Positions 214 through 36,554 of a stretch of 36,838 bases of DNA are shown piece by piece. The stretch covers positions 1-36,838 of the IMG/VR virus record IMGVR_UViG_3300023112_000047; one strand, given 5' to 3'. The DNA is from a virus. The notes beneath the pieces are model-generated. The model did no database searches and was not told the DNA's origin. It saw only the letters and a list, made by a program, of their open reading frames with translations. The position numbers and the translations under genes are program-made. Every line of letters starts with the position of its first letter. Within the stretch, counting starts at the first letter, position 1.

Positions 214-221
214 ACTAAATA
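214..221 (+). promoter_or_regulatory. Late promoter octamer ACTAAATA
   Basis: ACTAAATA is followed by exactly 5 nt and then the ATG at 227. It resembles the T4 late -10 element TATAAATA. The spacing selects 227 rather than the in-frame ATG at 221, which lies inside the octamer. Confidence 0.65.
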
Positions 222-226
222 TGGTC

Positions 227-964
227 ATGCGAGCATTGATTGTAGTTCCTACATACGATAGAGTAGAATATTTGGGTAGAGTGGTTCAATCATTCATAGA
301 ACAGACATATGATGAAGTAGAATTATTGATAATAAACGATCAGAAGAATTTATCTATTGAGTGTGATGTACCTAATGTTCGCATAATGAATATTAGCGAA
401 AAAATTCTGTTACCCCATAAGAGAAATCTAGGGGTTCAGTTTGGATATCATGACATAATTTTCACATTAGATGACGATTGTATCATGCTGCCAAATTATA
501 TTAAGAGTCACATGGAAATATATAAAAAAAGTAAACATGTTGAGTTCATTAGAGATAAAAATATGCACTCCTTGTATTGTGAGAAATTATGCCCCAATCA
601 ACAAGCTTTGGGAAATTGGTCATTTCGAAGGAGTTTATGGTTTGATGTTGGTGGATATGCTCTAGACTGCAATAATGGTGAAGATCAAGAGTTTCAAAAT
701 AAGATTGATCCCAATAAAATACTATTGAGAGACTCAGATATACCAAGTTTTGTATATGGGTGGACTGGAGTTAATTATCATTGCTCTGCAACAGATGAAT
801 ATAGATCATCTGGACAAGAGGTATATACTGATCCGACAGTTAAAAAAATTATTCCCGATGTCGAGTCGTACACAAATCTACAAATTGCCCACAATGCTGA
901 AATAAATGGGGATTCATATAACATCTTTGATATTGAAGGTAATATATGTTTAACTGATAAATAG
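227..964 (+). CDS. GT2-family glycosyltransferase
   Basis: This 245-residue protein opens with the GT-A signature strand RALIVVPTYDR, has a DDD metal/nucleotide-sugar motif at about residues 82-84 inside FTLDDDC, and has a GEDQEF acidic motif near 151-156 that is typical of the catalytic region. It should transfer a sugar from an NDP-sugar to an unknown acceptor, perhaps a virion protein, DNA or host glycan. The start at 227 is chosen because an ACTAAATA octamer ends 5 nt before it. A purine-rich GGGAGGTAG at 199-207 may also act as a ribosome site. The next gene begins 4 nt after the stop. A dTDP-sugar dehydratase at 14676 could supply substrate, but that link is inference. Confidence 0.8.
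   Translation: MRALIVVPTYDRVEYLGRVVQSFIEQTYDEVELLIINDQKNLSIECDVPNVRIMNISEKILLPHKRNLGVQFGYHDIIFTLDDDCIMLPNYIKSHMEIYKKSKHVEFIRDKNMHSLYCEKLCPNQQALGNWSFRRSLWFDVGGYALDCNNGEDQEFQNKIDPNKILLRDSDIPSFVYGWTGVNYHCSATDEYRSSGQEVYTDPTVKKIIPDVESYTNLQIAHNAEINGDSYNIFDIEGNICLTDK
956..963 (+). promoter_or_regulatory. Late promoter octamer GATAAATA
   Basis: GATAAATA overlaps the stop codon of the glycosyltransferase gene and lies 5 nt before the ATG at 969. The arrangement is the same as at the other late genes. Confidence 0.55.
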
Positions 965-968
965 ATAT

Positions 969-1571
969 ATGTCTACGGAAGTAAAGCAAAGCTATTTTAA
1001 TCAAGCCACTCAAGACAAATTCTTGATGGTGTTTGATATACCTGTAATCCTCAAAGATGACCAAACGCAATATAATAGGAAGAATTCCACAGTTATTCCA
1101 GACAGTGTGCAATATTCTCTATTTAAAACAGCTATTCCAGATGTCACTGTCAAAGGCGTGGAAGTTAGAAATGTAGGTAGTACCTTATATCTTTCCACAC
1201 ATAGTAAAGATTCATTCCCGCCAACTTCAGTGGATTTTGCCGTGGATAATGGATATAATAACTATTGGTGTATATTCAAGTGGATCAACTTGCTACATGA
1301 TCAGAAGACTGGACAGTACAATAGTGATAATTTGCCAGTAGATCAATCATATTCAGATTACCAAACTAACATTACTATTTTCGGGTTAGATGAGTTTGGT
1401 AAGAAGAGAATTAAGTGGACATTCACTAAAGCATTTCCAACAACATTGAAAGGATTGACATTTGATCAACAAGCAGAGGGAGATATGCGTATCATATCAG
1501 GATTCGACTTTCTATTCTCACAAATGCACGTTGAATTGTTGTCTGAGGAGTTATTTAAGGAACATCCTTAA
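969..1571 (+). CDS. Tail-tube-fold structural protein (gp19/gp54-like paralogue)
   Basis: This 200-residue protein precedes the sheath gene. Its C-terminal half reads like the contractile-tail tube fold: a KWTFTKAFPTTLKGL segment at about 149-163 followed by alternating strands with FDFLFSQMHVELL near 180-192. This matches the way gp19-type tube and tube-cap proteins end in a strand of alternating hydrophobic residues. Two other proteins in the window (5972, 6592) show the same design. It may be a tube, tube-initiator or tail-terminator component; the exact T4 equivalent is not clear. It has its own late promoter with a 5-nt spacing to the ATG. Confidence 0.5.
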   Translation: MSTEVKQSYFNQATQDKFLMVFDIPVILKDDQTQYNRKNSTVIPDSVQYSLFKTAIPDVTVKGVEVRNVGSTLYLSTHSKDSFPPTSVDFAVDNGYNNYWCIFKWINLLHDQKTGQYNSDNLPVDQSYSDYQTNITIFGLDEFGKKRIKWTFTKAFPTTLKGLTFDQQAEGDMRIISGFDFLFSQMHVELLSEELFKEHP

Positions 1572-1586
1572 TTTTAATCGAAAATG

Positions 1587-1594
1587 ATTAAATA
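1587..1594 (+). promoter_or_regulatory. Late promoter octamer ATTAAATA for the sheath gene
   Basis: ATTAAATA lies 5 nt before the sheath ATG at 1600, in the short gap after the preceding gene. No Shine-Dalgarno sequence is present between the octamer and the ATG. Confidence 0.6.
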
Positions 1595-1599
1595 CATTT

Positions 1600-3900
1600 A
1601 TGGCAACTAGAACTTTTAACAGTCCAGCGGTAGAGATTCGTGAGAGAGATCTCTCTCTCATAGCTCCTCAGAACGTAGGAACTAATATATTCTTGACAGG
1701 TTATGCAGACCAAGGACCAATCGACGAGGTAATTAAAATTACGTCGAAGGGTGAACTTGAGAGCATATACGGTGTTCCAAAAAACAGTGCTGAAAGATAT
1801 TTCTATCACTCAATTTTAGAACTTATTGATTCACCAGCACAGATTTACACATATCGTCTTCCTTATGGAGAAGATAGTGGCGATGGATTCGGCTCAAACT
1901 ATAGCATTCTTGCATATCCTGCAAGAAGTATTGAAAGTGGTGCAGTATCAGCATCAACAGACCTCTCGATTGCAGAAGGTACTATTGTTCTTGGTGAGCC
2001 ATCACACATGTCCATCACAGAAGATGAGTATGATGCTATCAAAGAAGGTGGTTTTGAGTGGGGTTCAACAGCAGGTACATCATTTAGCGCAGTATCAGCA
2101 TTGTCAGGAGCAGCATTGGTTGTCATCGATAAGGCTCAAACTACTGTAAATGAGAAGTTTGAAGGTTTCTACATTGGTGTATCTGACAATACATTGGTTG
2201 ATCCTTCAGTTGATCACAAGTCCATCACACAGGTTAAAGCATTGACCCAAGCGGGGTCAGATGTTTATACTGATGTTCCACAAGGCACACTTCAATTTAA
2301 CCTCACCGCTGATAGTGGTGGAGTTTCAAATAGTATTTCAGAAATCATGGATAATGTGACTGACTACAACATTGATGGAAGAACAGATGATGATCTTCTA
2401 AGTGTTGGTGTCTTCAAGTTGAAGAGATCTCAATATGCTAATGAAGCATTCAAGATTGATTACACTCTTGACTCAGCATTTGTTGGTTCAATCGATCCAA
2501 ACAGACAAGAACTTAATCCAAATGGCGGACCTTCAATACCTCTATTCCTTGAATATGTAGACTCAGACAACAGAAACATTGAAGTTCATGTTAACGAATA
2601 TATTGCTAACAACTTTAACCCAGCAGTTGATGGAGTGCCAGCTAAGAAGATTCGTGTTATGACTGAGGAACTACTTACTAACTATGGTTCAGTATCAGCA
2701 ACAGGTGAAGCTCTTGACGGAGTTACATATTCAGCTCTCTCCTCAGTAGGAGCAGCAGTTGGTTTCAGTGATAATATGTACGCATTAGGTAACTATAACG
2801 TATCAAACACTACAGACAAAAAACTTGGTATTATGCCAGATAAAGTTACTAGAGCGTTGGAATCAATTAAGAACGACGAAGTTTATGACATTGATGTATT
2901 GGTTGAAGCAGGGCTAGGTACAATTTGGGCAGCTTCAAGTGGTAGTGCAAGTGTTACTGGTGATGTTACTTATGACGAATTCGCATATGGAACAGTTCTA
3001 AAGGACGCAGTTGATAAGATTCGTACTTCTAAGGAAGTTAGTTCTGATCTAATTGAAGACTATAATACAATCTTTAATAAGTTTGAGAATTTCTGTAACC
3101 TACCAAGTAATACTGGTGGTCGTGGTGACTGTATGTTCATTGCAGATCCACTAAGACACATCTATGTAACTGGTAGAGATAATAAGATTATTGATAACAA
3201 GCAACGTAATTTCCAATTGGACATTTACTGGGCAACTCGTCACCAATTCGAATTCCAGAACACTTCATATGCTGCGGCTTATGCAAACTGGGGTAAGATT
3301 TATGATGAATTCACAGGACAAAAGATTTGGACACCACTTTCTGCACATTTAGGATCTATCTATGCACAAACAGATGCCAACGAATTCCCGTGGATAGCCC
3401 CTGCTGGCTTTAATAGAGGTCTTATGCGTAACGTACTAGACATTGCTGTTAAACCCAACCAGAAGCAGCGTGACGAACTTTATAAGTCTAACCTAAACCC
3501 AATCTTCTTCTCAAGAGCAGATGGTGTTGTGGTAATGGGACAGAAGACTCTAAGCAGAAAGCCAAGTGCGTTTGATAGAGTTAACGTTCGTAGATTGTTC
3601 TTAACACTTGAGCGACCAACTAAGAAGGTTTCCAAATACTTCCTATTCGAGCCAAACACTGAGTTCACAAGAACACGATTCGAAAACACTTTGATTCCTA
3701 TCATGGAATATGCAAAGCAAAACGGTGGTGTTTATGATTATCAGATTATTGCCGACGAAAGAGTTAACACTCCTGAAGTAATTGATAACAACGAATTGAG
3801 AGCAACAGTGTTACTCAAGCCAACAAGATCTGCCGAGTTCATCATCGTTGAGTTTGTGGCAACAAGAACTGATGCTAACTTCGAAGAGATCATCCGATAA
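1600..3900 (+). CDS. Contractile tail sheath protein (T4 gp18-like)
   Basis: At 766 residues this is slightly longer than T4 gp18. The N-terminus (MATRTFNSPAVEIRERDLS) is the usual sheath start, followed by a FLTGYADQGPIDEVIKITS segment. The C-terminal domain contains the INKFR-like region and ends in the strand-rich segment LLKPTRSAEFIIVEFVATRT, which is typical of the sheath subunit's C-terminal extension. The middle (about 100-400) is probably the variable protruding domain. It polymerises around the tail tube and contracts on infection. Codon use is unusually regular and GC-richer than in the accessory genes, as expected for a highly expressed virion protein. A strong terminator follows at 3922-3954. 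Confidence 0.93.
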   Translation: MATRTFNSPAVEIRERDLSLIAPQNVGTNIFLTGYADQGPIDEVIKITSKGELESIYGVPKNSAERYFYHSILELIDSPAQIYTYRLPYGEDSGDGFGSNYSILAYPARSIESGAVSASTDLSIAEGTIVLGEPSHMSITEDEYDAIKEGGFEWGSTAGTSFSAVSALSGAALVVIDKAQTTVNEKFEGFYIGVSDNTLVDPSVDHKSITQVKALTQAGSDVYTDVPQGTLQFNLTADSGGVSNSISEIMDNVTDYNIDGRTDDDLLSVGVFKLKRSQYANEAFKIDYTLDSAFVGSIDPNRQELNPNGGPSIPLFLEYVDSDNRNIEVHVNEYIANNFNPAVDGVPAKKIRVMTEELLTNYGSVSATGEALDGVTYSALSSVGAAVGFSDNMYALGNYNVSNTTDKKLGIMPDKVTRALESIKNDEVYDIDVLVEAGLGTIWAASSGSASVTGDVTYDEFAYGTVLKDAVDKIRTSKEVSSDLIEDYNTIFNKFENFCNLPSNTGGRGDCMFIADPLRHIYVTGRDNKIIDNKQRNFQLDIYWATRHQFEFQNTSYAAAYANWGKIYDEFTGQKIWTPLSAHLGSIYAQTDANEFPWIAPAGFNRGLMRNVLDIAVKPNQKQRDELYKSNLNPIFFSRADGVVVMGQKTLSRKPSAFDRVNVRRLFLTLERPTKKVSKYFLFEPNTEFTRTRFENTLIPIMEYAKQNGGVYDYQIIADERVNTPEVIDNNELRATVLLKPTRSAEFIIVEFVATRTDANFEEIIR

Positions 3901-3962: not shown

Positions 3963-3970
3963 ACTAAATA
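3963..3970 (+). promoter_or_regulatory. Late promoter octamer ACTAAATA
   Basis: It lies 9 nt downstream of the sheath terminator and 5 nt before the ATG at 3976, so transcription stops and restarts within 50 bases. Confidence 0.7.
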
Positions 3971-3975
3971 GACAT

Positions 3976-4764
3976 ATGATATCATTAAAAAACTACAACA
4001 AACTCGTTTCAGAAGAGTTCAACGAATATCATAAACAAGCTATTTCCGATAGTGAAGGAGATGGAGAATTTGAAGATCATTATTCTGGAAAAAAACCTGA
4101 AGCATATGAGTATGAAGATGAATATTATGGGCGTAATGTAATATGGATAGGTAACACAGGTAAAACTTTAAAAATACCCTCAGAATATGTTACATCTAGA
4201 GAAGATAATATTTTTGACTATGATAAAGCGAAAGTATTGGCTAATTATATCAGAGATCATGACGATAGGGTGGTATTTAGAACATCTGACGCAGATGTGA
4301 GACATATCGATTTAGATGATGTAAAAACATCTCAACACAATCCAGACTATATGGGCATTTCAAGATCGTTCACCACTGGAGACGAAGAATTGGATCAATT
4401 CCTAGCTAATGGGGATGATGCGATAGGAGATATTATGATATATTCGGGAGAGTATTTGAATGATGATTATACTTTAGATTTACCTAGATTACAAGAGGAG
4501 TTGTATGAAGATGATATTGAAGAGTTTAACGATATCGTAGAACAACATGAAGCTGAGTATGCAGAGTTGCAGGATATTTTACAGAGATTGAAAGAGGCTG
4601 AAGAAGATGGAGATGGAGACTTAGGTGCAATATGGGCTATAATGCGAGATGGTAATCATAGAACTCAAGCTGCAATTTTCTCTGGAGAACCATACATCTA
4701 TGTGGAACCCCTTGAATATGATGATAACTACGATGATAAGCCTTATTCTGACCAGTTGATGTAA
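3976..4764 (+). CDS. ParB/Srx-like domain protein with DGNHR motif
   Basis: This very acidic 262-residue protein has Asp/Glu-rich stretches near 28-56 and 175-220. Near the C-terminus it has IMRDGNHRTQAAIFSGEPYIYV (about 219-240), which resembles the ParB N-terminal/sulfiredoxin-fold motif in which the Arg of a GxxR-like turn lies in the nucleotide pocket. An early segment, LKIPSEYV with a following IFDYDKAKVLANYI, also fits the ParB-like layout. Such phage proteins may be nucleotidases, nucleases or scaffolds; the activity is unknown. The start at 3976 is taken from the 5-nt spacing to the late promoter and because the upstream in-frame ATG sits on the terminator T-run. It is flanked by sheath and tube genes, so it is expressed late. 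Confidence 0.6.
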   Translation: MISLKNYNKLVSEEFNEYHKQAISDSEGDGEFEDHYSGKKPEAYEYEDEYYGRNVIWIGNTGKTLKIPSEYVTSREDNIFDYDKAKVLANYIRDHDDRVVFRTSDADVRHIDLDDVKTSQHNPDYMGISRSFTTGDEELDQFLANGDDAIGDIMIYSGEYLNDDYTLDLPRLQEELYEDDIEEFNDIVEQHEAEYAELQDILQRLKEAEEDGDGDLGAIWAIMRDGNHRTQAAIFSGEPYIYVEPLEYDDNYDDKPYSDQLM

Positions 4765-4771: not shown

Positions 4772-4779
4772 ACTAAATA
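4772..4779 (+). promoter_or_regulatory. Late promoter octamer ACTAAATA (8-nt spacing)
   Basis: The octamer lies 8 nt before the ATG at 4788, one of the few sites that deviates from the 5-6 nt rule. A transcript starting 5 nt after it would carry a 3-nt leader. Confidence 0.55.
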
Positions 4780-4787
4780 TCATTAAG

Positions 4788-5069
4788 ATGAACAAATATG
4801 ACAAAAACAAACAAGCCATGTCTCTACTAGTAGAGTCTTCAATGGAAGCACCTCATGGTTGGGATAAAGGTTTTGAATATCCTCATGAACTAATGACTGG
4901 TGAAGCACCATTTAAACATAGGGATAATTGGTATCTATATATCTGGAATACTGATGAATCGGGGAAGAAAGATATAGCAGTATATAACTTTGGCACAGAC
5001 ATTGTTGAAGACTATGCAGATTTCCAAGCTATGATGCAAGGTGATGTAGGTAATGTGCCTGAAGCTTAG
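4788..5069 (+). CDS. Small acidic protein of unknown function
   Basis: A 93-residue protein between the ParB-like gene and the homing endonuclease. It contains a Trp/Tyr-rich stretch (about 48-54, NWYLYIW) and a C-terminal acidic helix-like segment (TDIVEDYADFQAMMQGD). I do not recognise a family. It has its own late promoter, so it is probably made with the tail proteins. Confidence 0.65.
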   Translation: MNKYDKNKQAMSLLVESSMEAPHGWDKGFEYPHELMTGEAPFKHRDNWYLYIWNTDESGKKDIAVYNFGTDIVEDYADFQAMMQGDVGNVPEA

Positions 5070-5088: not shown

Positions 5089-5096
5089 ACTAAATA
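5089..5096 (+). promoter_or_regulatory. Late promoter octamer ACTAAATA upstream of the homing endonuclease
   Basis: It lies 5 nt before an ATG at 5102 that opens only a 6-codon reading frame (MARWVK, stop) and 13 nt before the endonuclease ATG at 5110. It appears to be the duplicated or original promoter of the tube gene (see the direct repeats at 5090 and 5960). Confidence 0.6.
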
Positions 5097-5106
5097 AGTA
5101 TATGGC
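5090..5106 (+). repeat. Direct repeat, left copy, at the homing endonuclease boundary
   Basis: CTAAATAAGTATATGGC at 5090-5106 matches CTAAATAAGTGTATGGC at 5960-5976 in 16 of 17 positions. The repeat comprises the late promoter plus the first codons ATG GC- of the tube gene, so the endonuclease gene sits precisely between two copies of a gene start. Confidence 0.85.
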
Positions 5107-5109: not shown

Positions 5110-5967
5110 ATGGGTAAAATAATTACACAAGATATTGCAAAAAATAGATGCGAAAATCTAGGGTTTGAGTTAATATCTAAATACACTTCTAGTAAGAATA
5201 TCCATGACATTCAATGTCATTGTGGTGCGGTATTTAGTTCTAGAATAAGTAGTATATGGAATGGTCATACTACATCATGTGGGTGTGTCAATACCATTAC
5301 ACAAAAAGATGCCGAAGGCAAAACATTGGATATTGGTATAATATTACTATCTCCATATACTCAAAGTAAAAATAGCCATAAGTTTATGTGTTTTTGTGGT
5401 GTTGAATTCGAATCTAAAATAAATAATATTTGGTCTGGTGAAGTATCATCATGTGGGTGTTTGAAGAATATAAATGATATTCATGAAAGATTAGAAAAGT
5501 TAAACGTATCTCTTGTAGATGATTATAAAGGATCTCATAAATCTCACACATTCCAATGTAAATGTGGTAATAAATTTGGTAGGTTGATGCATCACGTATT
5601 ATATGATAAGAGAACCACCTGTGGATGTGATACTAAATCAAATGGAGAATTATTGGTAAGAAATATTTTAAATTCTATTGATATTGATTATATAGAAGAA
5701 TACACCTTCAAGGATTGTAGAAATGAAAGACTTCTTAGATTTGATTTCTACATACCAGACTATAATATATGCATAGAATATAACGGAAGACAACATTATG
5801 AACCAATTGAGTTTTTTGGGGGAATATCTTCATTTCATAGGCAGATGGAGAATGACTCACTCAAACGCCAATATTGTTGTATATATAAAAAGAATTTACT
5901 TATATTAAAATATAATGAATCTTATCGTGATATTTATGATAAAATATCCAACCTAATAGCTAAATAA
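5110..5967 (+). CDS. Free-standing PD-(D/E)XK (VSR-like) homing endonuclease
   Basis: This 285-residue protein has three zinc-ribbon-like repeats of about 60 residues, each with a CxCG near its start and a CGC near its end (about 36-59, 93-119, 154-176), probably for DNA recognition. A C-terminal nuclease domain follows (about 180-285), with RFDFYIPDY, then CIEYNGRQHY and a QMENDSLKRQYC helix, the layout of the VSR/EDxHD-type homing nucleases. It lies between two 17-nt repeats containing the late promoter and start of the tail tube gene. It is more AT-rich in style than the flanking tail genes, fitting recent entry. The late promoter should drive it. Confidence 0.8.
   Translation: MGKIITQDIAKNRCENLGFELISKYTSSKNIHDIQCHCGAVFSSRISSIWNGHTTSCGCVNTITQKDAEGKTLDIGIILLSPYTQSKNSHKFMCFCGVEFESKINNIWSGEVSSCGCLKNINDIHERLEKLNVSLVDDYKGSHKSHTFQCKCGNKFGRLMHHVLYDKRTTCGCDTKSNGELLVRNILNSIDIDYIEEYTFKDCRNERLLRFDFYIPDYNICIEYNGRQHYEPIEFFGGISSFHRQMENDSLKRQYCCIYKKNLLILKYNESYRDIYDKISNLIAK
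5959..5966 (+). promoter_or_regulatory. Late promoter octamer GCTAAATA for the tail tube gene
   Basis: The octamer overlaps the stop codon of the endonuclease gene and lies 5 nt before the tube ATG at 5972. The tube gene therefore keeps its promoter despite the insertion. Confidence 0.7.
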
Positions 5968-5976
5968 GTGTATGGC
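5960..5976 (+). repeat. Direct repeat, right copy, at the homing endonuclease boundary
   Basis: Right-hand partner of the repeat at 5090-5106, differing by one base (G for A at the eleventh position). It contains the functional start of the tube gene. Confidence 0.85.
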
Positions 5977-6577: not shown

Positions 6578-6585
6578 ACTAAATA
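6578..6585 (+). promoter_or_regulatory. Late promoter octamer ACTAAATA
   Basis: It lies just after the tube terminator and 6 nt before the ATG at 6592; the first possible start, TTG at 6589, is less likely. Confidence 0.65.
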
Positions 6586-6591
6586 GAATTG

Positions 6592-7191
6592 ATGTCAACT
6601 CCGAGCGCACAACAGTTTTTAGATAGATTCAGTAATGATCCATCCTTCTTCATCCCCCTAGAATCATTATTTGAAGTCACCTTTATAAAAGCTCCAAATA
6701 TTACATCCAATCTCGTCCCTCCTATGTATGGACAAGCTGGAGTGTTTAATGGCGGCTCAGTGTCATCCAGTTCTAGGTATTTGGCGCAATCTGTTAATAT
6801 ACCAGAAGAACAAATTGATGTATCAGCATTCGAAGTATCTCCAAATGGAAATTCTGGTGGATATTTAGCAGGATATGGTCTTGCCCAACGAAGTACTGGA
6901 TTTATGAGTTTAGCTATAAACTTCATTGAGACTGAAGTAGATATTGTTGATACTTATTTTAGACTATGGACAATTGCTATTGGACGCAAGGGGTTGATTA
7001 CAGACAACGATCTCAAAGGAGATGTTGTTATTAAACAATATAATACCAATGGAGGTCTTCGTAAGACTTTTAAATACACAGGAGTGTTTCCTCATGCTGT
7101 AGAAGCACAGTCATTGAACTATGATACCGACGATTCCACACTGCGCATAAAATCAGTCACCTTTGGTTACGAAAATTACTCAGTGTATTAA
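6592..7191 (+). CDS. Baseplate tube-initiator-like protein (gp54-like, tube fold)
   Basis: A 199-residue protein following the tube gene. It begins like the tube protein (SAQQFLDRFSNDPSFFIPLESLFEVTFIK) and has an inner SVNIPEEQIDVSAFEV segment and a C-terminal RIKSVTFGYENYSVY strand, consistent with the tube fold shared by gp19, gp48 and gp54 of T4. Position between tube and baseplate hub genes supports a role at the tube-baseplate junction. It is much shorter than T4 gp54 (about 320 residues), so it may represent only the tube-like domain. The assignment is by fold pattern and context. Confidence 0.5.
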   Translation: MSTPSAQQFLDRFSNDPSFFIPLESLFEVTFIKAPNITSNLVPPMYGQAGVFNGGSVSSSSRYLAQSVNIPEEQIDVSAFEVSPNGNSGGYLAGYGLAQRSTGFMSLAINFIETEVDIVDTYFRLWTIAIGRKGLITDNDLKGDVVIKQYNTNGGLRKTFKYTGVFPHAVEAQSLNYDTDDSTLRIKSVTFGYENYSVY

Positions 7192-8688: not shown

Positions 8689-8696
8689 ACTAAATA
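8689..8696 (+). promoter_or_regulatory. Late promoter octamer ACTAAATA for the tape-measure gene
   Basis: It lies 6 nt before the ATG at 8703, directly after the gp26-like stop codon. Confidence 0.65.
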
Positions 8697-8702
8697 CAAG
8701 TA

Positions 8703-10574
8703 ATGGACATTACTGCTAAATTACTTGAAGTGTTGCAAGGACAAACACAGGCTACTGAGAAGTTGTCTGAGGCATATAAAGACTCAGATAGCTCTGGTGG
8801 GTCTAAACTTGTAGACAAAAATATTGTAAAAAGTAGTGAGGGAAGTTCCTTTGATACAAAGAAGGGTAGAAAATCCATATCGAGTCGTGATAAGACTGAT
8901 ATAGCTGTTGTTGCGGATATATTTGCTGCAAAATATGTGGACATGATGAAGAAGTCCCAAAAGGATACATTCCTCAAAGCTAAAACTACTAAAAAGAAAT
9001 CTACCTCTAAAGGAAGTGGTAAGGTTGGTGGTGTGGTGAAAGATGTCGCCCAAGGATTAGGTCTTGGTTCAATCATAGCTGCATTAATGGCTGTATCTGG
9101 AAAGATTATACCAATGGCTAAAAAGGTCTGGAAGATCTTTAAGAACAGTAAACTTGGTAAGTCAATTATCAAAATGGCTAAGTCTATATCCAGTACACTT
9201 AAAACAGTGTTTACTAAGATTAAGGATGTGTTAGTTAAGGTATTCACCAAGATATGGGGATTCATGAAGAGATTTGGTAAATTTGTTGCCAAAATATTCG
9301 GAAGAATCTCAGAATGGGCAAAACCATATCTCAAAGTTATAGGAGAGAAGATAGCATCGTTATGGAAAACCATTAAAGGTATTTTCAATAAAGTTGTTGG
9401 TAAAATTATTAGTCTAGGTAAGAAGATAGGTGCAGTGGTTGCCAAAGTATTGGGAAAATTACCTTCTGCAACAGCATTGGTAAAATCTATTGGCAAGCTC
9501 ACTGGTAGTATTGGTAAGGTTATTAATGGGATTATTGATTCTATTATAGGTCTTAAAGATAAAGCTGAGAAGGTTGTAAAAAGGGCTGTTGAGTTTGTGA
9601 AGAACCCAGCGAAGGGTGTTTGGAACGCTGCTAAGGCAGTTGGTGGTAAAGCTATGTCTACTGCTAAGGCAGTTGGTGGTAAAGCTATGTCTACTGCTAA
9701 GGCAGTTGGTGGGACAGCAGCAAAAGGCATAAAGGTAGTTGGTGGGGCGGCAGTAAAAGGTGTTAAATCAGTTGGAAAGATGGCATTTGGTCCTGCGCAG
9801 AAATTATTTAAAAAGGCACTTGGTGTTGTATCAAAAAATCCATCAAAACTTTTAGGTGGTATTGCTAGACGTGTGCCATTAATAGGGACTTTAATTGAAA
9901 GCTTATTAACTCACAATGATTTAAAGAAACTAAAGCAACAACACGCAAATGGCGAAATTGATACTAAGCAACTGAATCTGAGAGCAGGTACTAGAGTTGT
10001 TAAGGGTGTGACTGGTATAGCTGGAGCAGGTTTGGGTGCTGTGTTGGGTGGAGCATTAGGCTCAGTGGTTCCAGTGGCAGGTAACGCCATTGGTGCTATT
10101 CTAGGTGGGGTATTTGGCGACATCGCTGGCAAAAAAGCTGGTGGTATGTTGGTTAATAACTTTTTATCTAAAAAAATGGTTAGTGGGTTTGGTTCACATG
10201 TAATATCTAAGATGGCTACTCCTAAGAAAGAGATGCAAGACTTTATTGTTAAAGGAGATAATGTATATCCCTTCAGCAATAAAGATGAAGTTGTTGGTAT
10301 GAAGACAGGGGGAGCATTTCAACAAGTTATGGAAGGTGCTAAAGGTGGTAATGCTGTAGTCCATGTACAAAGAACCAATAAGATTTTAATGAAGCAAATT
10401 GAGCAGATGAATATATTATTACAATATACTAAAATAATTGCAGAAAAAGAAAATAGTGGTGGTGGTGCAGCAATTGTTCCAATGTCTCTCCCAGCACCAA
10501 AGGAATCTAATGTGGCTCAATTAGCTGCCAATAATAATAGAGATAGTTATTCCAACAGCCCTTACAGTTACTAA
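8703..10574 (+). CDS. Tape-measure / hub protein (gp29-type role)
   Basis: A 623-residue, strongly basic protein, close to the roughly 590 residues of T4 gp29, which sets tail length. A Lys/Ser-rich N-terminal part (to about 110) precedes a long helical stretch (about 115-350) with repeated basic-hydrophobic blocks. Three copies of KAVGGKAMSTA-like repeats lie near 310-340. A glycine-zipper segment rich in GAGLGAVLGGALGS (about 440-480) could insert in a membrane. The C-terminus is Asn/Ser-rich. Membrane-insertion potential in tape measures is known from other phages. The length suggests a tail about as long as that of T4; this is inference. It lies between hub assembly and tube-cap genes. 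Confidence 0.65.
   Translation: MDITAKLLEVLQGQTQATEKLSEAYKDSDSSGGSKLVDKNIVKSSEGSSFDTKKGRKSISSRDKTDIAVVADIFAAKYVDMMKKSQKDTFLKAKTTKKKSTSKGSGKVGGVVKDVAQGLGLGSIIAALMAVSGKIIPMAKKVWKIFKNSKLGKSIIKMAKSISSTLKTVFTKIKDVLVKVFTKIWGFMKRFGKFVAKIFGRISEWAKPYLKVIGEKIASLWKTIKGIFNKVVGKIISLGKKIGAVVAKVLGKLPSATALVKSIGKLTGSIGKVINGIIDSIIGLKDKAEKVVKRAVEFVKNPAKGVWNAAKAVGGKAMSTAKAVGGKAMSTAKAVGGTAAKGIKVVGGAAVKGVKSVGKMAFGPAQKLFKKALGVVSKNPSKLLGGIARRVPLIGTLIESLLTHNDLKKLKQQHANGEIDTKQLNLRAGTRVVKGVTGIAGAGLGAVLGGALGSVVPVAGNAIGAILGGVFGDIAGKKAGGMLVNNFLSKKMVSGFGSHVISKMATPKKEMQDFIVKGDNVYPFSNKDEVVGMKTGGAFQQVMEGAKGGNAVVHVQRTNKILMKQIEQMNILLQYTKIIAEKENSGGGAAIVPMSLPAPKESNVAQLAANNNRDSYSNSPYSY
9630..9712 (+). repeat. 33-bp in-frame tandem repeat in the tape-measure gene
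   Basis: Two exact 33-bp units (9630-9662, 9663-9695) and the first 17 bases of a third. Each encodes AKAVGGKAMST. The exact identity at the DNA level indicates a recent expansion, with potential to change in copy number. Confidence 0.9.
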
Positions 10575-10577
10575 ATA
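10570..10577 (+). promoter_or_regulatory. Late promoter octamer ACTAAATA
   Basis: It overlaps the tape-measure stop codon and lies 5 nt before the ATG at 10583. Confidence 0.65.
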
Positions 10578-10582
10578 AATAT

Positions 10583-11386
10583 ATGGCTACCGTTGACGTA
10601 ATTAAGGACTTTCCGTGGTGTATCAATACTAATGATACTGAACTACTGAAGGATTGTCCCAAAATTCACATACAATTTCATCGAATGAAAGATTTGGGTG
10701 TTGTTCGAAAGGCTAGGAATCTGATCAAACAGGGTGTTAACACAGAAGCAGGTAAAGCCTTCTATGATAGTCTATATGATACGGAAAAGGAAGATACATA
10801 TACATTTCCATTCTTTGACACAAACTACATTAGTTATTCAAATTCATTTAGTGATAATTTAATGGGAAATGTTGGTAATGGGCAAGGTCTTGCTGCAATT
10901 GGAGATAAGTTATCTGATATTCATTCTGAATTTAGATTCATGGGAGAACTTGGTGGTGTAATTGCTGGAGCAGTAAGGTCAAAAAATCTATCAGCCCTTG
11001 AGAGTCTATCGGATCAAAGTAGAACTATATATCCAGAGACACCTCAATATCAACAATTTGGAAAAAAGGCAAGTGATATAACAGTGACATTCACATTATT
11101 AAACACTAGCTCAACTAAAGGATATGATAAAAATATTGACTTAGTGAGAGAGTTAGCAAGAATTAATAAACCAACTAGAAAGACTTCTATATTTATGGAG
11201 CCAAGTAGAATATGTAAGATCAAAATCCCAGGATATAGAGATCTTCCTTGGGCATATTGCAGTAACTTTTCGCTTAATGGATTAGGTACTCAGCGTATGG
11301 TAGGTTCTGGTATATTGCCAGAAGCATATCAATTGCAGATGGTGTTCACACCCCTAATAACAGAAGATTCAAGCCTCATAAAATAA
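10583..11386 (+). CDS. Baseplate tail-tube cap (T4 gp48-like)
   Basis: A 267-residue protein. A central IYPETPQYQQFGKKASDITVTFTLLNT segment (about 152-178) and a C-terminal ARINKPTRKTSIFMEPSRICKIKIPG segment match the layout of gp48-type tube caps, which terminate in a tube-like domain. Position immediately upstream of a gp53-like gene agrees with the T4 gene set (48, 54, 53, 27). It would cap the hub and start tube polymerisation. The TAATGA overlap with the next gene implies coupled translation. Confidence 0.6.
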   Translation: MATVDVIKDFPWCINTNDTELLKDCPKIHIQFHRMKDLGVVRKARNLIKQGVNTEAGKAFYDSLYDTEKEDTYTFPFFDTNYISYSNSFSDNLMGNVGNGQGLAAIGDKLSDIHSEFRFMGELGGVIAGAVRSKNLSALESLSDQSRTIYPETPQYQQFGKKASDITVTFTLLNTSSTKGYDKNIDLVRELARINKPTRKTSIFMEPSRICKIKIPGYRDLPWAYCSNFSLNGLGTQRMVGSGILPEAYQLQMVFTPLITEDSSLIK

Positions 11387-14070: not shown

Positions 14071-14594
14071 ATTGTTTTAATACTATCATTATCAGTATTA
14101 TCAGTATTATCATTTTTATCACTCATTAATGCAATAAACTCTTCTCTTGTTAACTTAATAGTTTGTTTATTATTCTCTTCTCTATTAAGAGCAATTTTCT
14201 CTCTACTATTAATATCAATTTGTTTGAGTTCTTTTTGTTGTTTCAATTTAGATTTCTCCAATTTAATCTTATTAAGAGATGCAACTGCACTTGTGGCAGC
14301 ATTAACTAAACCATTATAACCTTCCAGTGCCTTTGCATCATAAGTAAATGAATCTGGATTCTCTGACATACTTTCAACAACACCCATTACATTCTCAATA
14401 ATAGTAGCAGTTTGTTTTACGACATACTCATCAATATCAGATTCATCCAAGTCTTCAACATTCATAGTTTTTCTAGAAGGTGTTGAATCGGACGGAAATG
14501 TTGCACTACCCATCAAGACATTCACAATATTCTCTGGATTCTCAAGGTCTTTAGAATCAAGGTCGTCAAATTCGGAAAGGATATCATCACTCAT
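14061..14594 (-). CDS. Candidate small terminase subunit (gp16-like)
   Basis: A 177-residue acidic-N, basic-middle protein. It has an acidic N-terminus (about 1-60), then TIIENVMGVVESMSENPDSFTYDAKALEGYNGLVNAATSAVASLNKIKLEKSKLKQQ (about 82-138), a long helical hairpin, and a charged tail. T4 gp16 shows the same plan: a central helical pair with a 'sp..yEv.a.L......a..ell.lhk..k' pattern. It would recognise phage DNA for the packaging motor. No HTH is visible. A scaffold or coiled-coil tail protein remains possible. It is the only clear minus-strand gene and carries its own late octamer. Confidence 0.4.
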   Translation of the reverse strand: MSDDILSEFDDLDSKDLENPENIVNVLMGSATFPSDSTPSRKTMNVEDLDESDIDEYVVKQTATIIENVMGVVESMSENPDSFTYDAKALEGYNGLVNAATSAVASLNKIKLEKSKLKQQKELKQIDINSREKIALNREENNKQTIKLTREEFIALMSDKNDNTDNTDNDSIKTIDV

Positions 14595-14603
14595 AATCCC
14601 TTA

Positions 14604-14611
14604 TATTTAGT
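14604..14611 (-). promoter_or_regulatory. Late promoter octamer ACTAAATA on the minus strand
   Basis: Read on the minus strand, ACTAAATA lies 9 nt before the ATG at 14594, with AAGGG in the spacer. The element therefore works with gene orientation rather than being a composition artefact of the plus strand. Confidence 0.55.
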
Positions 14612-14640: not shown

Positions 14641-14669
14641 TTGACCATTACCCGCAATCGTGCTAAATT
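14641..14669 (+). promoter_or_regulatory. Sigma70-like promoter for the dehydratase gene
   Basis: TTGACC (14641-14646), 17 nt, TAAATT (14664-14669). The GTGCTAA context resembles the promoter cassettes at 28535, 31863 and 32567. The ATG at 14676 is 6 nt downstream, so this transcript could also start at or close to its start codon. Confidence 0.55.
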
Positions 14670-14675
14670 TCTTCA

Positions 14676-15671
14676 ATGATCGACCTAAACGGAAAACGAG
14701 TGCTAATAACTGGCACTAGCGGATTTATAGCCCAAAACTTCTTAGCCACGTTGGAAGGAATGTATCCAAACATTGGATTGGTGATGTGTATGGACTACGC
14801 CCCCGCCTTCAATCTTAGGCAACATTTTTCGAAAGAATTCTACGATAACAAGATAGTAGATTTGAGTCATACACGCATTGAACGCTATGCATTTTCTCCA
14901 GACGTAGATAGATATGATGTTATCTTCAATTTTGCTGCCGAATCACATGTTGATCGTTCTATCTCAGATCCACTAACATTCGCAACAAACCTAACATCCA
15001 CTATGGCACTACTAAATCATGTAGTGTGTGAAAAGGAGAAAGGGCATAATATCCAAATGATTCAAATCAGTACAGATGAAGTGTATGGACACCACCTAAC
15101 TACAAGTGCAAAGCCCCATACTGAAGATTCTCAATTACAACCAAGGAATCCATACGCTGCATCAAAAGCAGCAGCAGACCTTATGTGTGAGGCATATGTA
15201 AGTACATATGACATTGATGTATTGGTGACAAGATGTACTAATAACTTTGGTATTTACCAACGTACAGAAAAATTTATTCCAACTATCATTTCAAAGTTGG
15301 TTGCAGGTGAGAAAATCCCTGTTTATGGAGAAGGAGACAACATTAGAGAGTGGATTCATGTTGATGACCACTGCAAGTCTATCTTAGAGATCGCAGGAGA
15401 GCACACAAGAGGTGTTCACAACATTTCGGGAGGCACACCTAAGAATAATTTGGAATTGGTTCAGGACATATTGACGGCTTATAATAAGCTAGTGCCTGAA
15501 AGTGAAAAAACTATGGTAAATAGTGTTGAATTTGTAGATGATAGAAAAGGTCATGATAAGATCTATGCTATCACTTCAAAATACTATTTACGTGGTTTTG
15601 AAACCGTTCCATATGAGGATGCTATTGATGAAATAGTTAAACACTATGTAGCATACTACAAAGGTCAATGA
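14676..15671 (+). CDS. dTDP-glucose 4,6-dehydratase (RmlB-type extended SDR)
   Basis: A 331-residue protein with the Rossmann GTSGFIA at 13-19 (TGxxGFIG class), AAESHVDRS at 87-95, the catalytic TDE at 133-135 in ISTDEVYG, and YxxxK at Y160/K164. This combination is specific for RmlB-type dehydratases, which convert dTDP-glucose to dTDP-4-keto-6-deoxyglucose using bound NAD+. Length is close to the usual 330-360. It could supply a modified sugar to the glycosyltransferase at 227, to virion glycosylation, or remodel host glycan precursors. Its stop codon overlaps the next start (ATGA). It depends on NAD+, as the downstream NAD+ module supplies. Confidence 0.85.
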   Translation: MIDLNGKRVLITGTSGFIAQNFLATLEGMYPNIGLVMCMDYAPAFNLRQHFSKEFYDNKIVDLSHTRIERYAFSPDVDRYDVIFNFAAESHVDRSISDPLTFATNLTSTMALLNHVVCEKEKGHNIQMIQISTDEVYGHHLTTSAKPHTEDSQLQPRNPYAASKAAADLMCEAYVSTYDIDVLVTRCTNNFGIYQRTEKFIPTIISKLVAGEKIPVYGEGDNIREWIHVDDHCKSILEIAGEHTRGVHNISGGTPKNNLELVQDILTAYNKLVPESEKTMVNSVEFVDDRKGHDKIYAITSKYYLRGFETVPYEDAIDEIVKHYVAYYKGQ

Positions 15672-21215: not shown

Positions 21216-21223
21216 ACTAAATA
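21216..21223 (+). promoter_or_regulatory. Late promoter octamer ACTAAATA for the second homing endonuclease
   Basis: It lies 5 nt before the ATG at 21229. It is the only late octamer with start-codon spacing found inside the NAD+ module, so the selfish gene carries its own late promoter. Confidence 0.65.
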
Positions 21224-21228
21224 CTCTC

Positions 21229-22194
21229 ATGACACAGAGAGATTCGCAATCAAAAAATATAAACTCCTCAGATGGATTATTTAAGACATTAACCACCGAG
21301 GAGTTTATATTAAAGGCTATAGAAGTCCATGGCAACACATTCGATTATTCGAGGGTTGTGTATGAAAAAAGTAAACAAAAAGTGGAAATAGTATGCCCTC
21401 TTCATGGGGCATTTTTACAAATACCTAATTCTCATTTAATGGGTCGGGGCTGTAAAAAATGTTCGAGGCATAGAGCTTCTATAAAAAATACAATTTCTTT
21501 TGATGAATTTGAAGAGAAAGCTTTACACACTCATGGAGATTATTATGTATATGATAGAGATTCATACACAGGAACATCAGATCATATAGTAATAACATGT
21601 CCTGTGCATGGGGAATTTATGCAGAAAGGAATTGAACATATTCGGGGCAAGGGGTGTTATATATGTGGACAAGAAAAGAGATTTAAATCGAAGACTAAGG
21701 ATACTAATTGGTTTCTAGAAAAGGCAAAATGTGTTCATGGCGATTTATATGAGTACAATCAAGTAGACTATAAAAAAATTAAAGAAAAGGTTAAAATAGA
21801 ATGCACAAAACATGGAGAATTTGCACAAACCCCTCAATTACACTTAAATGGTGGAGGTTGCCCTAAGTGTAGATCTTCTAAAGGGGAGAAAAAAATCAGA
21901 AATTATTTTAATGAATGTGGTATGATATTTGAAGAACAAAAAACTTTTGATGGTTGTATAGATAAAAGATCTCTAAAATTTGATTTCTTCATCAATAATA
22001 AATTGATAGAATTTCAAGGAATTCAACATTATATATCAATAGATCATTTTGGCGGCGAAGATGCTTTATTGGGTAGGCAGAAAAAAGATCAAATTAAGAG
22101 AGATTTTTGTGAGGAAAATAACATACCTCTTTTGGAGATAAGATATGATGATAAAAACTGGAAAAGAAAAATGCAAAAATTTCTCAAGATATAG
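21229..22194 (+). CDS. Free-standing PD-(D/E)XK homing endonuclease
   Basis: A 321-residue relative of the protein at 5110. Three treble-clef-like repeats have CPLHG/CPVHG/CTKHG (about 56, 122, 186) and closing GC-x-x-C pairs. The C-terminal nuclease domain (about 220-321) has SLKFDFFINNKLIEFQGIQHY and a DQIKRDFCEENNIPLLEIRY helix-strand. These are metal-binding DNA-recognition modules and a VSR-like nuclease. It interrupts the NAD+ module between the NAMPT and HAD genes. A C-terminal fragment of a relative lies immediately downstream at 22271-22351. Confidence 0.8.
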   Translation: MTQRDSQSKNINSSDGLFKTLTTEEFILKAIEVHGNTFDYSRVVYEKSKQKVEIVCPLHGAFLQIPNSHLMGRGCKKCSRHRASIKNTISFDEFEEKALHTHGDYYVYDRDSYTGTSDHIVITCPVHGEFMQKGIEHIRGKGCYICGQEKRFKSKTKDTNWFLEKAKCVHGDLYEYNQVDYKKIKEKVKIECTKHGEFAQTPQLHLNGGGCPKCRSSKGEKKIRNYFNECGMIFEEQKTFDGCIDKRSLKFDFFINNKLIEFQGIQHYISIDHFGGEDALLGRQKKDQIKRDFCEENNIPLLEIRYDDKNWKRKMQKFLKI

Positions 22195-27503: not shown

Positions 27504-27531
27504 TTGACAATCTGAGCCTATCCGCTAGGGT
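27504..27531 (+). promoter_or_regulatory. Possible sigma70-like promoter
   Basis: TTGACA (27504-27509), 16 nt, TAGGGT (27526-27531), ending 6 nt before the ATG at 27538. The -10 is a poor match. Confidence 0.35.
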
Positions 27532-27537
27532 AAGCCC

Positions 27538-27972
27538 ATGACCAACACAGAGATATACGTTGTAAGCTGTATAGCACTAACACATGTGATTGTATCAGTA
27601 TGTTTTCACTTAAATGTTAGGAAAGATTTTGAGAAACCTTTATCTCATTACGATATATATAGGCAAGGTGAAGCAGTGTTTATGTGCTACTTTCCATTAG
27701 TAAACATATTAATGTTTATTGCTGGATGGAATGATAAACGTATTAATGCAATGCTTAAACGCAATAACATAGAACACACCGAAAACCAAAAACTCGAAAA
27801 GATCAATGAGAAGCTTCTTGTATATTTGGAAGATCCTGACTTTGATCCAATGAAGTATAACAAACTCAAAGAACAGATTATTAACGATCTTTCCAAAAAT
27901 GAAAAACAAACAATACCTCAATTACCAGACAATAATAAGTATATGGATAAACTTTTCAGTTATGACAGCTAA
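27538..27972 (+). CDS. Small membrane protein of unknown function
   Basis: A 144-residue protein with hydrophobic segments at about 6-24 and 47-64 and a charged, helical C-terminal half (KLEKINEKLLVYLEDPDFDPMKYNKLKEQI). It lies between tRNA-His and tRNA-Ala. No family is recognised. Confidence 0.6.
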   Translation: MTNTEIYVVSCIALTHVIVSVCFHLNVRKDFEKPLSHYDIYRQGEAVFMCYFPLVNILMFIAGWNDKRINAMLKRNNIEHTENQKLEKINEKLLVYLEDPDFDPMKYNKLKEQIINDLSKNEKQTIPQLPDNNKYMDKLFSYDS

Positions 27973-31088: not shown

Positions 31089-31096
31089 ACTAAATA
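31089..31096 (+). promoter_or_regulatory. Late promoter octamer ACTAAATA for an HNH gene
   Basis: It lies 5 nt before the ATG at 31102. Confidence 0.65.
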
Positions 31097-31101
31097 TAGG
31101 T

Positions 31102-31755
31102 ATGATACCAAATAGGGATGAACTAACTAATGCCAAATATAGAGATTATATAGATATCAATTGTGACCATTGCGGGATTTCATTTGAGAGAATGAAGAGA
31201 TCTATCATGACTGGTGGCGACACACACTATTGCACAAGTCAATGTTTTGCCAACTATAAAAGTATGTTGGCGAAAGAATCTAAAAAGGATATCTTCGAAA
31301 AATCATGCTCTATGTGTGGAGAAATAAAATCATTAGAATCCTTCAATAAGAATAAGACAAAACCAGATGGGTATAACACAATGTGCAGAGTGTGTAGTAA
31401 TATCAGATCTAGACAATACTATAAAGAGAACCCAATAGAACATAAGATAGCGGTACAAGAGAGAAATAAAAGGGTTAGGATGGAGAACATGCGTTCAATA
31501 TTTAACTACTATTTAGATAACCCTTGTATAGATTGCGGAGAAGCAAATCCAGTCATATTAGATTCAGATCATAGAGATGTAGATACAAAATTTAAAAATA
31601 TATCAGAGATGGTCGGAGAATCATATAGTTGGAAACGAATTATAGAAGAGTTGAATAAATGCGAAACAAGATGCGCCAACTGTCATAGAAAACGAACAGC
31701 AAAACAATTTAACTGGTACAAAGGTATGCCAGATATAGAAAAATATCTTAAATAA
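31102..31755 (+). CDS. HNH endonuclease abutting tRNA-Lys
   Basis: A 217-residue protein with three cysteine modules: an N-terminal CDHC...YCTSQC finger (about 21-44), a second ribbon CSMC...MCRVC (about 70-99), and the HNH core CIDCGEANPVILDSDH followed by RCANCHRKR (about 146-198). The Asp-His at the end of the first strand is the catalytic site. It is expressed from its own late octamer and ends 1 nt before tRNA-Lys, just as 26427 ends next to tRNA-Pro. Confidence 0.85.
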   Translation: MIPNRDELTNAKYRDYIDINCDHCGISFERMKRSIMTGGDTHYCTSQCFANYKSMLAKESKKDIFEKSCSMCGEIKSLESFNKNKTKPDGYNTMCRVCSNIRSRQYYKENPIEHKIAVQERNKRVRMENMRSIFNYYLDNPCIDCGEANPVILDSDHRDVDTKFKNISEMVGESYSWKRIIEELNKCETRCANCHRKRTAKQFNWYKGMPDIEKYLK

Positions 31756-33055: not shown

Positions 33056-33062
33056 AATAAAT

Positions 33063-34054: not shown

Positions 34055-34140
34055 GCTGATGTGGTGGAACGGAATACACTGGATGTTTAAGCCATCCCAC
34101 TCTTCGGAGTATGCAGGTTCAAATCCTGTCATCAGTACCA
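34055..34140 (+). tRNA. tRNA-Leu(TAA)
   Basis: Acceptor GCTGATG/CATCAGT (one G-U), A73, CCA encoded. Class II with a long variable arm (ACTCTTCGGAGT). Anticodon loop TTTAAGC gives TAA in GGATG/CATCC. Confidence 0.92.
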
Positions 34141-34442: not shown

Positions 34443-34466
34443 ACTTAAAAATAAAATATTAATAAA

Positions 34467-34772: not shown

Positions 34773-34773
34773 C

Positions 34774-35070
34774 ATGACTCAAAAAACATTAGAACAATTC
34801 GTACTTCTTACAGAAGCGCAAGAGAAACAACATTTTGTATGTACTGCATATATTGATACTATTCATTCGATGATTAAGCGTAGAGCTTCTTATAATGGAT
34901 TAAAGGATTGGGAAGAACGCATGTTACAAGCCTCTTATGAAGCTGTTGATTATCCATTGGATGATCGTTTAACACATGGTAAATTTAAGTTGGAGAGAGC
35001 TGTAGAAGCAATACCAAAGAACACAGGAAAAAAGCTGACTCCTATGGAGATTGAAGCACTAGAAGATTAA
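34774..35070 (+). CDS. Unknown protein
   Basis: A 98-residue mostly helical protein (QFVLLTEAQEKQHFVCTAYIDTIHSMIKRRASYNGLKDWEERMLQASYEAVDYPLDD). It sits in an operon with neighbours: 1-nt gap upstream and a TAATG overlap downstream. No family is recognised. Confidence 0.6.
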   Translation: MTQKTLEQFVLLTEAQEKQHFVCTAYIDTIHSMIKRRASYNGLKDWEERMLQASYEAVDYPLDDRLTHGKFKLERAVEAIPKNTGKKLTPMEIEALED

Positions 35071-35456
35071 TGGAAGAATTTAGTATAGAAGATACTGCAA
35101 TGACCTATGATGAATGGAAGCAAGCTAGTTTTTATGTCCGTAAGGGCGCAAAATCAAGGTTTCGTGATCCACTAGGCGTTGCTGTCTTCTGTATTGACCA
35201 AGTTATAGCTTACGATGCAGAAAAGATTCAGTTTATCAAAGATGAACTTGACAGAATCCCCCAATCAGAGTATGATCTCTATATCGGTAAGAAGGAATTG
35301 GTTTTCCCGACTATCAACACAGCGACAACGACAAGAAGAAGTAACAATTATCTCCTAACCAACATTGAACACCATTTCGTGGATGCAACTAACAAAGCTT
35401 TCATCCATACAATAGGTGATCAATACGAAGAAGATTACGACGAAAGAGAATTTTAA
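35070..35456 (+). CDS. Unknown protein
   Basis: A 128-residue protein whose ATG overlaps the previous stop. It has a mixed helical core (MTYDEWKQASFYVRKGAKSRFRDPLGVAVFCIDQVIAYDAEK) and an acidic C-terminus. Function unknown. Confidence 0.6.
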   Translation: MEEFSIEDTAMTYDEWKQASFYVRKGAKSRFRDPLGVAVFCIDQVIAYDAEKIQFIKDELDRIPQSEYDLYIGKKELVFPTINTATTTRRSNNYLLTNIEHHFVDATNKAFIHTIGDQYEEDYDEREF

Positions 35457-35460
35457 TATA

Positions 35461-35679
35461 ATGAAACAGAAATATAATTATTTAATAGTATATAGATTCG
35501 GAGATAGTTTTACTCCTGTAATAGATAATCATGTTGGTAGAGGGGATTCACCTGATGAAGTTTGGGTATATGGCTATCCTAATAGTGATGATGAAGTAGA
35601 AATAAGTCAATGCCATGAACCAATCATCAAGGCGTTAGAGGATCATAGTACGAATGTAATAGTACATAGAATCAAATAA
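35461..35679 (+). CDS. Small protein of unknown function
   Basis: A 72-residue beta-rich protein (YNYLIVYRFGDSFTPVIDNHVGRGDSPDEVWVYGYP). The ATG at 35461 is chosen over in-frame upstream codons because it follows the previous stop by 4 nt. It ends 1 nt before tRNA-Arg. Confidence 0.6.
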   Translation: MKQKYNYLIVYRFGDSFTPVIDNHVGRGDSPDEVWVYGYPNSDDEVEISQCHEPIIKALEDHSTNVIVHRIK

Positions 35680-35680
35680 A

Positions 35681-35756
35681 GGGAATATAGTGAAGTTGGA
35701 TATCACGCTAGTCTACGAAACTAGAATTCGAGTTTCGATTACTCGTATTCCTACCA
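35681..35756 (+). tRNA. tRNA-Arg(ACG)
   Basis: Acceptor GGGAATA/TATTCCT (one G-U), A73, CCA encoded. Anticodon loop CTACGAA gives ACG in CTAGT/ACTAG; T-arm CGAGT/ACTCG. Reading of CGN codons needs A34 deamination by the host. Confidence 0.9.
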
Positions 35757-35806
35757 ATTAACAAACAAAATAAATGATATAAGTATTGTAAAATGGTTCG
35801 ACTCGA

Positions 35807-35814
35807 ACTAAATA
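35807..35814 (+). promoter_or_regulatory. Late promoter octamer ACTAAATA for an HNH gene
   Basis: It lies 5 nt before the ATG at 35820, which is preferred over the in-frame ATG at 35793. Confidence 0.65.
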
Positions 35815-35819
35815 CTTAT

Positions 35820-36554
35820 ATGAAACAGAGAACAAGTAAGATATGGACAGTAAGTAATGAAGAACTACAAACCCTATTCAATGAATCATCTACTAGGGTA
35901 GAGATATTAGAGAAGCTGGGGTTTGATGGGTATAATGGAAATCATAGAACATTGAAGCTGCGTGTTGATGAAGGTGAAATAGACTTAACTCAATTTGATG
36001 AAAATTATATGAAGTTTATGGGTAGAAAGTTGGGTAAGGTGAATAAAAGACCAGATTTAGAGGTATTTTGTATAAATTCGACATACACATCAAATAAAGA
36101 CATAAAGAAGAGGTTGATCAAAGATCATGGGAGAGAATGTATTTGTGTTGGATGTGGTGTTGGAGACACCTATAACGATATTCCCATATCACTACAGTTG
36201 GATCATATTAATGGAATTAATAATGATAATAGATTCGAAAATCTAAGATTCCTATGTCCCAACTGTCATTCACAAACATCTACATTTAGTGGTAAGCGAC
36301 ATAAGATTGATTATACTTGTATATCTTGCGGCAACTCTAAGAAGACTAAACTTAGTGAGAGATGTGATAAATGTTCTGATAAACAAAAAGGATTAGATAA
36401 TAGAAAATTCAATCCAACGAAAGAAGAATTATATGAAATGGTGTGTGTAGATAAAACACCATTTACAAAATTAGGAATATTATTCGGAGTATCAGACAAT
36501 GCAGTTCGAAAGAGATGTGTTAAGTATGGTATTGATCCTAAGAAAAGAGAATAA
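35820..36554 (+). CDS. HNH endonuclease with C-terminal helix-turn-helix
   Basis: A 244-residue protein. Its HNH core reads CICVGCGVGDTYNDIPISLQLDH (the catalytic DH), then INGINNDNRFENLRFLCPNCH (about 100-145), and a zinc ribbon CISCGNSKKTKLSERCDKC follows (about 160-178). The end (about 195-240) is a helix-turn-helix with FTKLGILFGVSDNAVRKRCVKYGI, also found alone at 32945. It is driven by a late octamer and ends 8 nt before tRNA-Gly. Confidence 0.85.
   Translation: MKQRTSKIWTVSNEELQTLFNESSTRVEILEKLGFDGYNGNHRTLKLRVDEGEIDLTQFDENYMKFMGRKLGKVNKRPDLEVFCINSTYTSNKDIKKRLIKDHGRECICVGCGVGDTYNDIPISLQLDHINGINNDNRFENLRFLCPNCHSQTSTFSGKRHKIDYTCISCGNSKKTKLSERCDKCSDKQKGLDNRKFNPTKEELYEMVCVDKTPFTKLGILFGVSDNAVRKRCVKYGIDPKKRE

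Follow-up and report, generated by a model that had tools for sequence, protein, structure and literature searches.

Late-type octamers in the window

The DNA studied here, the window, is a 36.8-kb virus fragment from IMG/VR (IMGVR_UViG_3300023112_000047, 36,838 nt) that gave no megablast match to phage records. Genes were called with a simple codon-usage caller. The fragment encodes a gp18-like tail sheath protein (phrog_23, E 8.7e-64), and three tail tube paralogues (969, 5972 and 6592) are placed around the sheath gene. Eleven tRNA genes lie among HNH endonucleases and short genes without known function at 27069-36640. Octamers with the consensus R-H-TAAATA precede the genes listed in Table 1, which also gives two candidate promoters of another type.

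Table 1. Late-type octamers and candidate sigma70-type promoters of the window and their distances to gene starts
Position	Strand	Element	Distance to start	Gene
214..229	+	late-type octamer ACTAAATA	5 nt	ATG 227, without known function
956..971	+	octamer GATAAATA	5 nt	ATG 969, tail tube (phrog_45)
1587..1602	+	octamer ATTAAATA	5 nt	ATG 1600, tail sheath, gp18-like
3963..3978	+	octamer ACTAAATA	5 nt	ATG 3976, without known function
4772..4790	+	octamer ACTAAATA, weak member	8 nt	ATG 4788
5089..5104	+	octamer ACTAAATA	5 nt	ATG 5102, 6-codon frame overlapping HNH start 5110
5959..5974	+	octamer GCTAAATA	5 nt	ATG 5972, tail tube
6578..6594	+	octamer ACTAAATA	6 nt	ATG 6592, tail tube paralogue
8689..8705	+	octamer ACTAAATA	6 nt	ATG 8703, tape-measure-like
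10570..10585	+	octamer ACTAAATA	5 nt	ATG 10583, conserved, without known function
14594..14611	-	octamer ACTAAATA, weak member	9 nt	start 14594
14641..14678	+	candidate sigma70-type promoter TTGACC-N17-TAAATT	6 nt	ATG 14676, nucleotide-sugar epimerase
21216..21231	+	octamer ACTAAATA	5 nt	ATG 21229, HNH endonuclease
27504..27540	+	candidate sigma70-type promoter TTGACA-N16-TAGGGT	6 nt	ATG 27538
31089..31104	+	octamer ACTAAATA	5 nt	ATG 31102, HNH endonuclease
35807..35822	+	octamer ACTAAATA	5 nt	ATG 35820, HNH endonuclease

An earlier note on this DNA had listed octamers 5 nt before the ATGs at 227, 969, 1600, 3976, 5972, 10583, 21229, 31102 and 35820, and at 6 nt (6592, 8703), 8 nt (4788) and 9 nt (the minus-strand gene at 14594). 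All of these were recovered, and a tenth 5-nt site, overlooked there, was found before ATG 5102. The stretch 5089-5122, a late-type promoter with its 6-codon frame, is possibly the trace of a homing endonuclease insertion. The description of the octamer genes as virion genes holds for the tail, sheath and tape-measure genes, but not for the three HNH endonucleases (21229, 31102 and 35820), and the genes at 227, 3976 and 10583 gave no family match. Homing endonucleases of T4 can likewise own late promoters (PMC2988022). As had been noted, the octamer is absent from the overlapping operon genes at 11386, 11784 and 13127; the same holds for their orthologues, except in locus L019 at 11386.

The window contains 10 TAAATA-N5-ATG arrangements, on the plus strand only, compared with a mean of 1.56 (sd 1.18, max 5) in 100 dinucleotide shuffles. 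When distances of 0-30 nt were compared within the window, the 5-nt class contained 10 sites, the mean being 1.31 (Poisson 1.3e-6). The octamer core itself was not over-abundant (54 copies, 52 by chance), and it is thus the spacing that carries the information, as the earlier note had proposed. The distances are clustered beyond chance, and the octamer spacing is confirmed as a real feature. TAAATA served as the search pattern for these counts, but it also emerged from an unbiased scan that took in all hexamers at all distances upstream of ATG; here TAAATA at 5 nt ranked first in two related contigs (G001 and G003, see below) and tied for first in the window. The same scan of the T4 genome recovered AGGAGA, the Shine-Dalgarno core, which validates the procedure.

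Conservation of the spacing among relatives

A search with the sheath protein yielded about 40 viral loci (36-100% identity). One of them, the 85-kb contig G001, is near-identical to the window and represents the same virus; a 232-base offset across about 20-24 kb points to an insertion or deletion between these close relatives. G003, G012, G013 and others share 55-58% sheath identity, and two further near-complete genomes, G022 (212 kb) and G023 (202 kb), were obtained with the gp55 homologue of G013 as query.

In all six genomes the distance from [ACT]TAAATA to ATG peaked at exactly 5 nt, with 22 sites in G001, 19 in G003 and 16 in G012 (other distances 1.8-5.8 across the six genomes). The near-complete genomes of 200-212 kb gave 43 (G013), 38 (G022) and 52 (G023) sites at 5 nt compared with 4.7-5.8 elsewhere. 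The peak became sharper when only called gene starts were considered; in G013, for instance, 37 starts had the octamer at 5 nt and not one had it at 4 nt. Distance counts showed no 5-nt peak in T4, Syn9, Mel-JY01 or G018; in T4 and Syn9 the same octamer lies about 20-29 nt upstream of starts.

At 50-60% protein identity, orthologous starts still had the octamer 5-6 nt upstream. The clearest case is the tail tube gene at 5972, whose orthologues in nine further distinct loci (50-57% protein identity) all have the octamer at 5 nt within different flanks. Within the clade the sheath gene (1600) has it at 5 or 6 nt. For 969 several orthologues are at 5-6 nt and two at 9 nt; those of 6592 are mostly at 5-6 nt, several with a GTG start; those of the tape-measure gene (8703) are mostly at 5 nt, two of these with GTG; and those of 10583 are mostly at 5 nt. 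In outgroups (36-38% sheath identity; also L039 and L040) 16-21 nt separate the octamer from the start of the sheath gene, and in L039 the sequence AAGGAGT stands between the two. The occurrence of one octamer at two distances from the sheath gene favours a promoter over a ribosome-binding element.

Kinship to T4 and the gp55-type sigma factor

Homologues of T4-type replication proteins were found in G001 (gp41, gp44) and G013 (gp43, gp44, gp41, uvsX, gp46, gp47). Together with the gp18-like sheath these place the phages in the T4 superfamily. A PF02916 search for a gp45-type sliding clamp, which in T4 acts through gp33 to activate late promoters, gave no match; a homologue of the clamp loader gp44 is present. 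G013 has genes for two late sigma factors of the gp55 type (phrog_234, E 1.7e-26 and 2.8e-12), at 178247-178020(-) and 24750-24980(+), one of which is short and diverged. The gp55 homologues of G022 and G023 are 82% and 70% identical to that of G013. No gp55 gene was present in the window fragment or in G001; we infer one for the window virus from its relatives. A cluster of 21 tRNAs in G013 includes one with a CTA anticodon (L060:3941-4013), possibly an amber suppressor. TAG is the rarest stop in G013, used by 11 of 278 called genes.

The first two bases of the clade octamer are R and H rather than the T and A of the T4 late promoter TATAAATA. In sequence logos the bases upstream of the octamer were not strongly conserved, and no conserved -35 element was evident.

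Position of the predicted transcription start

The T4 late promoter begins at -13, about one helical turn upstream of the point where transcription starts (PMC2988020). With the octamer reaching from -13 to -6, a spacing of 5 nt would set +1 on the A of the ATG. This placement, made in the earlier note by analogy to T4, is supported not only by the published geometry but also by the relatives, the outgroups, the gp55 homologue and the initiator and divergent-gene patterns described next.

The fifth base after the octamer was a pyrimidine followed by a purine at 176 of 203 5-nt sites, with T at -1 being frequent at other gene starts of G013 too. At the 6-nt gene starts of G001 this step was shifted accordingly (all 8 had a -2 pyrimidine followed by a -1 purine), and the initiator step thus follows the octamer and not the ATG; the 6-nt pattern is strong in G001 and weak in G013, G022 and G023. 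GTG starts were enriched at 5 nt (26 vs 10, p 1.7e-5) and TTG starts were not (20 vs 21), a pattern that a purine +1 at the first codon position would produce. Where divergent genes each carry an octamer, in five clade genomes and in Pelagibacter phage HTVC008M, only 26-53 bp separate the start codons, which leaves little room for leaders.

Leaderless late mRNAs are the best reading of this geometry. The octamer could also be a late promoter with variable starts, so that most late mRNAs would be near-leaderless with leaders of a few nucleotides. Start sites can indeed move by 1-3 nt, and the distances show a second peak at 6 nt and a tail at 7-9 nt; but the sharp 5-nt peak with almost nothing at 4 nt, and the pyrimidine-purine step at the predicted +1, make such leaders improbable.

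Shine-Dalgarno signals and further promoter classes

Shine-Dalgarno sequences were detected at 64% of T4 genes and at 57% of the non-octamer genes of HTVC008M, but at only 1 of 67 octamer genes in G013, 1 of 29 in G001 and 1 of 17 in HTVC008M. The claim that the octamer genes lack a Shine-Dalgarno thus stands, but nothing special attaches to it in the window clade, where no gene class showed a Shine-Dalgarno signal above background. Since all genes of the clade lack it, its absence is not diagnostic there. HTVC008M provides the cleanest within-genome contrast, 1 of 17 against 57%: it has the same 5-nt octamer geometry as the clade, but its other genes use Shine-Dalgarno sequences and those of the clade do not. 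In this culturable isolate 12 gene starts have the octamer at 5 nt, and, where checked, the deposited annotation agrees with the predicted ATG at seven of them (6280, 7562, 11972, 16007(-), 18916(-), 18943 and 19456). Two of its annotated genes diverge with 26 bp between their starts.

Promoters of the sigma70 type, TTGACA-N16 to 19-TAnnnT, were likewise enriched and tend to end 6 nt before the ATG. In a third, boxed class (TTAATTAAAACCGAA-N-TATAAT) the distance from the end of the promoter to the ATG is exactly 6 nt at 35 of the 50 G013 sites and 32 of the 36 G022 sites; in G023 another box, ATTAAACACTA, precedes a TATAAT at the same 6-nt distance. The activator-like box directly upstream of TATAAT occurs in tens of copies in G013, G022, G012 and G023, and its sequence has diverged between relatives (AAACCGAA in G013 and G022, AAACACTA in G023). 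A -10 hexamer spans -12 to -7. When it ends 6 nt before the ATG, +1 would fall on the start codon here too. These two classes would be called early or middle promoters by T4 analogy only. The proposal of leaderless late genes is thus supported but was too narrow, because the sigma70-type and boxed -10 classes stand in the same register, and leaderless starts appear to be the general mode of the genome, beyond the late genes.

An explanation in which transcription begins elsewhere and the octamer is an A-rich ribosome-binding element within a longer leader, replacing the Shine-Dalgarno, accounts for several of these data. A distance of 5 nt resembles Shine-Dalgarno spacing, a clade without Shine-Dalgarno in any gene class needs some other signal, and A is frequent at -3 and -2 of internal starts. 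The motif, however, is that of the T4 late promoter, and it is depleted where ribosome binding is needed most, at operon-internal genes: 32 of 136 octamer genes lie inside operons compared with 300 of 554 other genes (p 7.5e-11). Neither the 16-21 nt distance in outgroup sheath genes nor the enrichment of GTG but not TTG fits a ribosome element; divergent pairs are too close for separate promoters further upstream, and the other promoter classes have matching but class-specific spacing. We consider this explanation quite unlikely. An origin of the spacing in chance or composition (an AT-rich genome, upstream TAA stops, shared descent of repeated HNH elements) can practically be dismissed: some octamers do overlap the stop codon of an upstream gene, and the octamer occurs at background frequency, but the shuffle and distance controls, the recurrence of the peak in several divergent genomes and its absence from T4, Syn9 and Mel-JY01, and orthologues that kept motif and spacing while their upstream flanks diverged, all speak against it.

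Proposed mechanism and comparison with known systems

We propose, with a probability of roughly 0.85, that R-H-TAAATA is the T4-superfamily late promoter for a gp55-type sigma factor, fused to the start codon so that leaderless mRNAs result, and that other promoters stand in the same register. Motif, spacing, conservation, the sigma factor of the relatives, the initiator step and the absence of Shine-Dalgarno are read directly from the sequences. RNA polymerase with a gp55-type sigma factor would recognize the octamer and, at 5-nt spacing, begin transcription at the start codon's first base; at 6-nt spacing the predicted +1 would be one base earlier. The host ribosome, assumed to be capable of it, would then initiate at the 5'-terminal AUG or GUG of the leaderless mRNA, and operon-internal genes without an octamer would probably be reached by translational coupling. 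With the sigma70-type and boxed -10 promoters in the same register, promoter and start codon would form one fused module throughout. It also seems fairly probable to us that the whole T4-superfamily lineage manages without 5' leaders and Shine-Dalgarno sequences, with late (gp55), sigma70-type and boxed promoters all fused to start codons in a way that makes each gene's first base +1.

The clade octamer shares with the T4 late promoter the TAAATA core, the lack of a -35 element and a gp55-family sigma factor (here in the relatives), and both are found before tail genes and homing endonucleases. In T4, however, the promoter lies 20-29 nt upstream, with a Shine-Dalgarno-bearing leader in between, whereas the clade has 5-6 nt and R-H in place of TA. 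The cyanophage late promoter NATAAATA (S-PM2, Syn9) belongs to the same motif family and is likewise associated with gp55 (PMC2984593). Syn9 differs from the clade in that its octamers lie 20-29 nt before starts.

Leaderless mRNAs in phages are usually regarded as exceptions. The mRNA of lambda cI, an example of a leaderless phage mRNA, likewise begins at the AUG, but it concerns one regulator, whereas in the clade tens of genes in each genome, among them virion genes, would be affected. It was in phage lambda that leaderless initiation was discovered (PMC3160421), and a passing remark holds that phage transcripts are often leaderless (PMC5312081). Searches of the open-licence literature yielded no description of leaderless late mRNAs for T4-like phages. 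TA-led genes of bacteria are classed as leaderless by a -10 element located about 10-12 bp upstream of the start codon (Zheng et al. 2011, PMC3160421), and in the clade the -10-type distance is the same. TA-led genes use a host sigma70 -10 box and form a minority of genes, whereas the clade combines a phage late promoter and two more classes in a genome free of Shine-Dalgarno signals.

As to the host, the absence of Shine-Dalgarno had suggested Bacteroidetes, but their TAnnTTTG promoter is not enriched, whereas TTGACA-N16-19-TAnnnT is, which leaves a Bacteroidetes host unsupported. Bacterial assemblies were discarded as host evidence as well, with only two sheath matches (30-31%), both in metagenome-assembled genomes of unrelated groups. 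The layout itself would hint at a host poor in Shine-Dalgarno sequences.

Altogether, it appears that a T4-related lineage relies on leaderless mRNAs for its virion genes, and several promoter classes have the same layout. This would show a known transcription programme refitted to translation without Shine-Dalgarno. The octamer geometry may allow start codons of such phages to be corrected from sequence alone, and HTVC008M offers a culturable test case.
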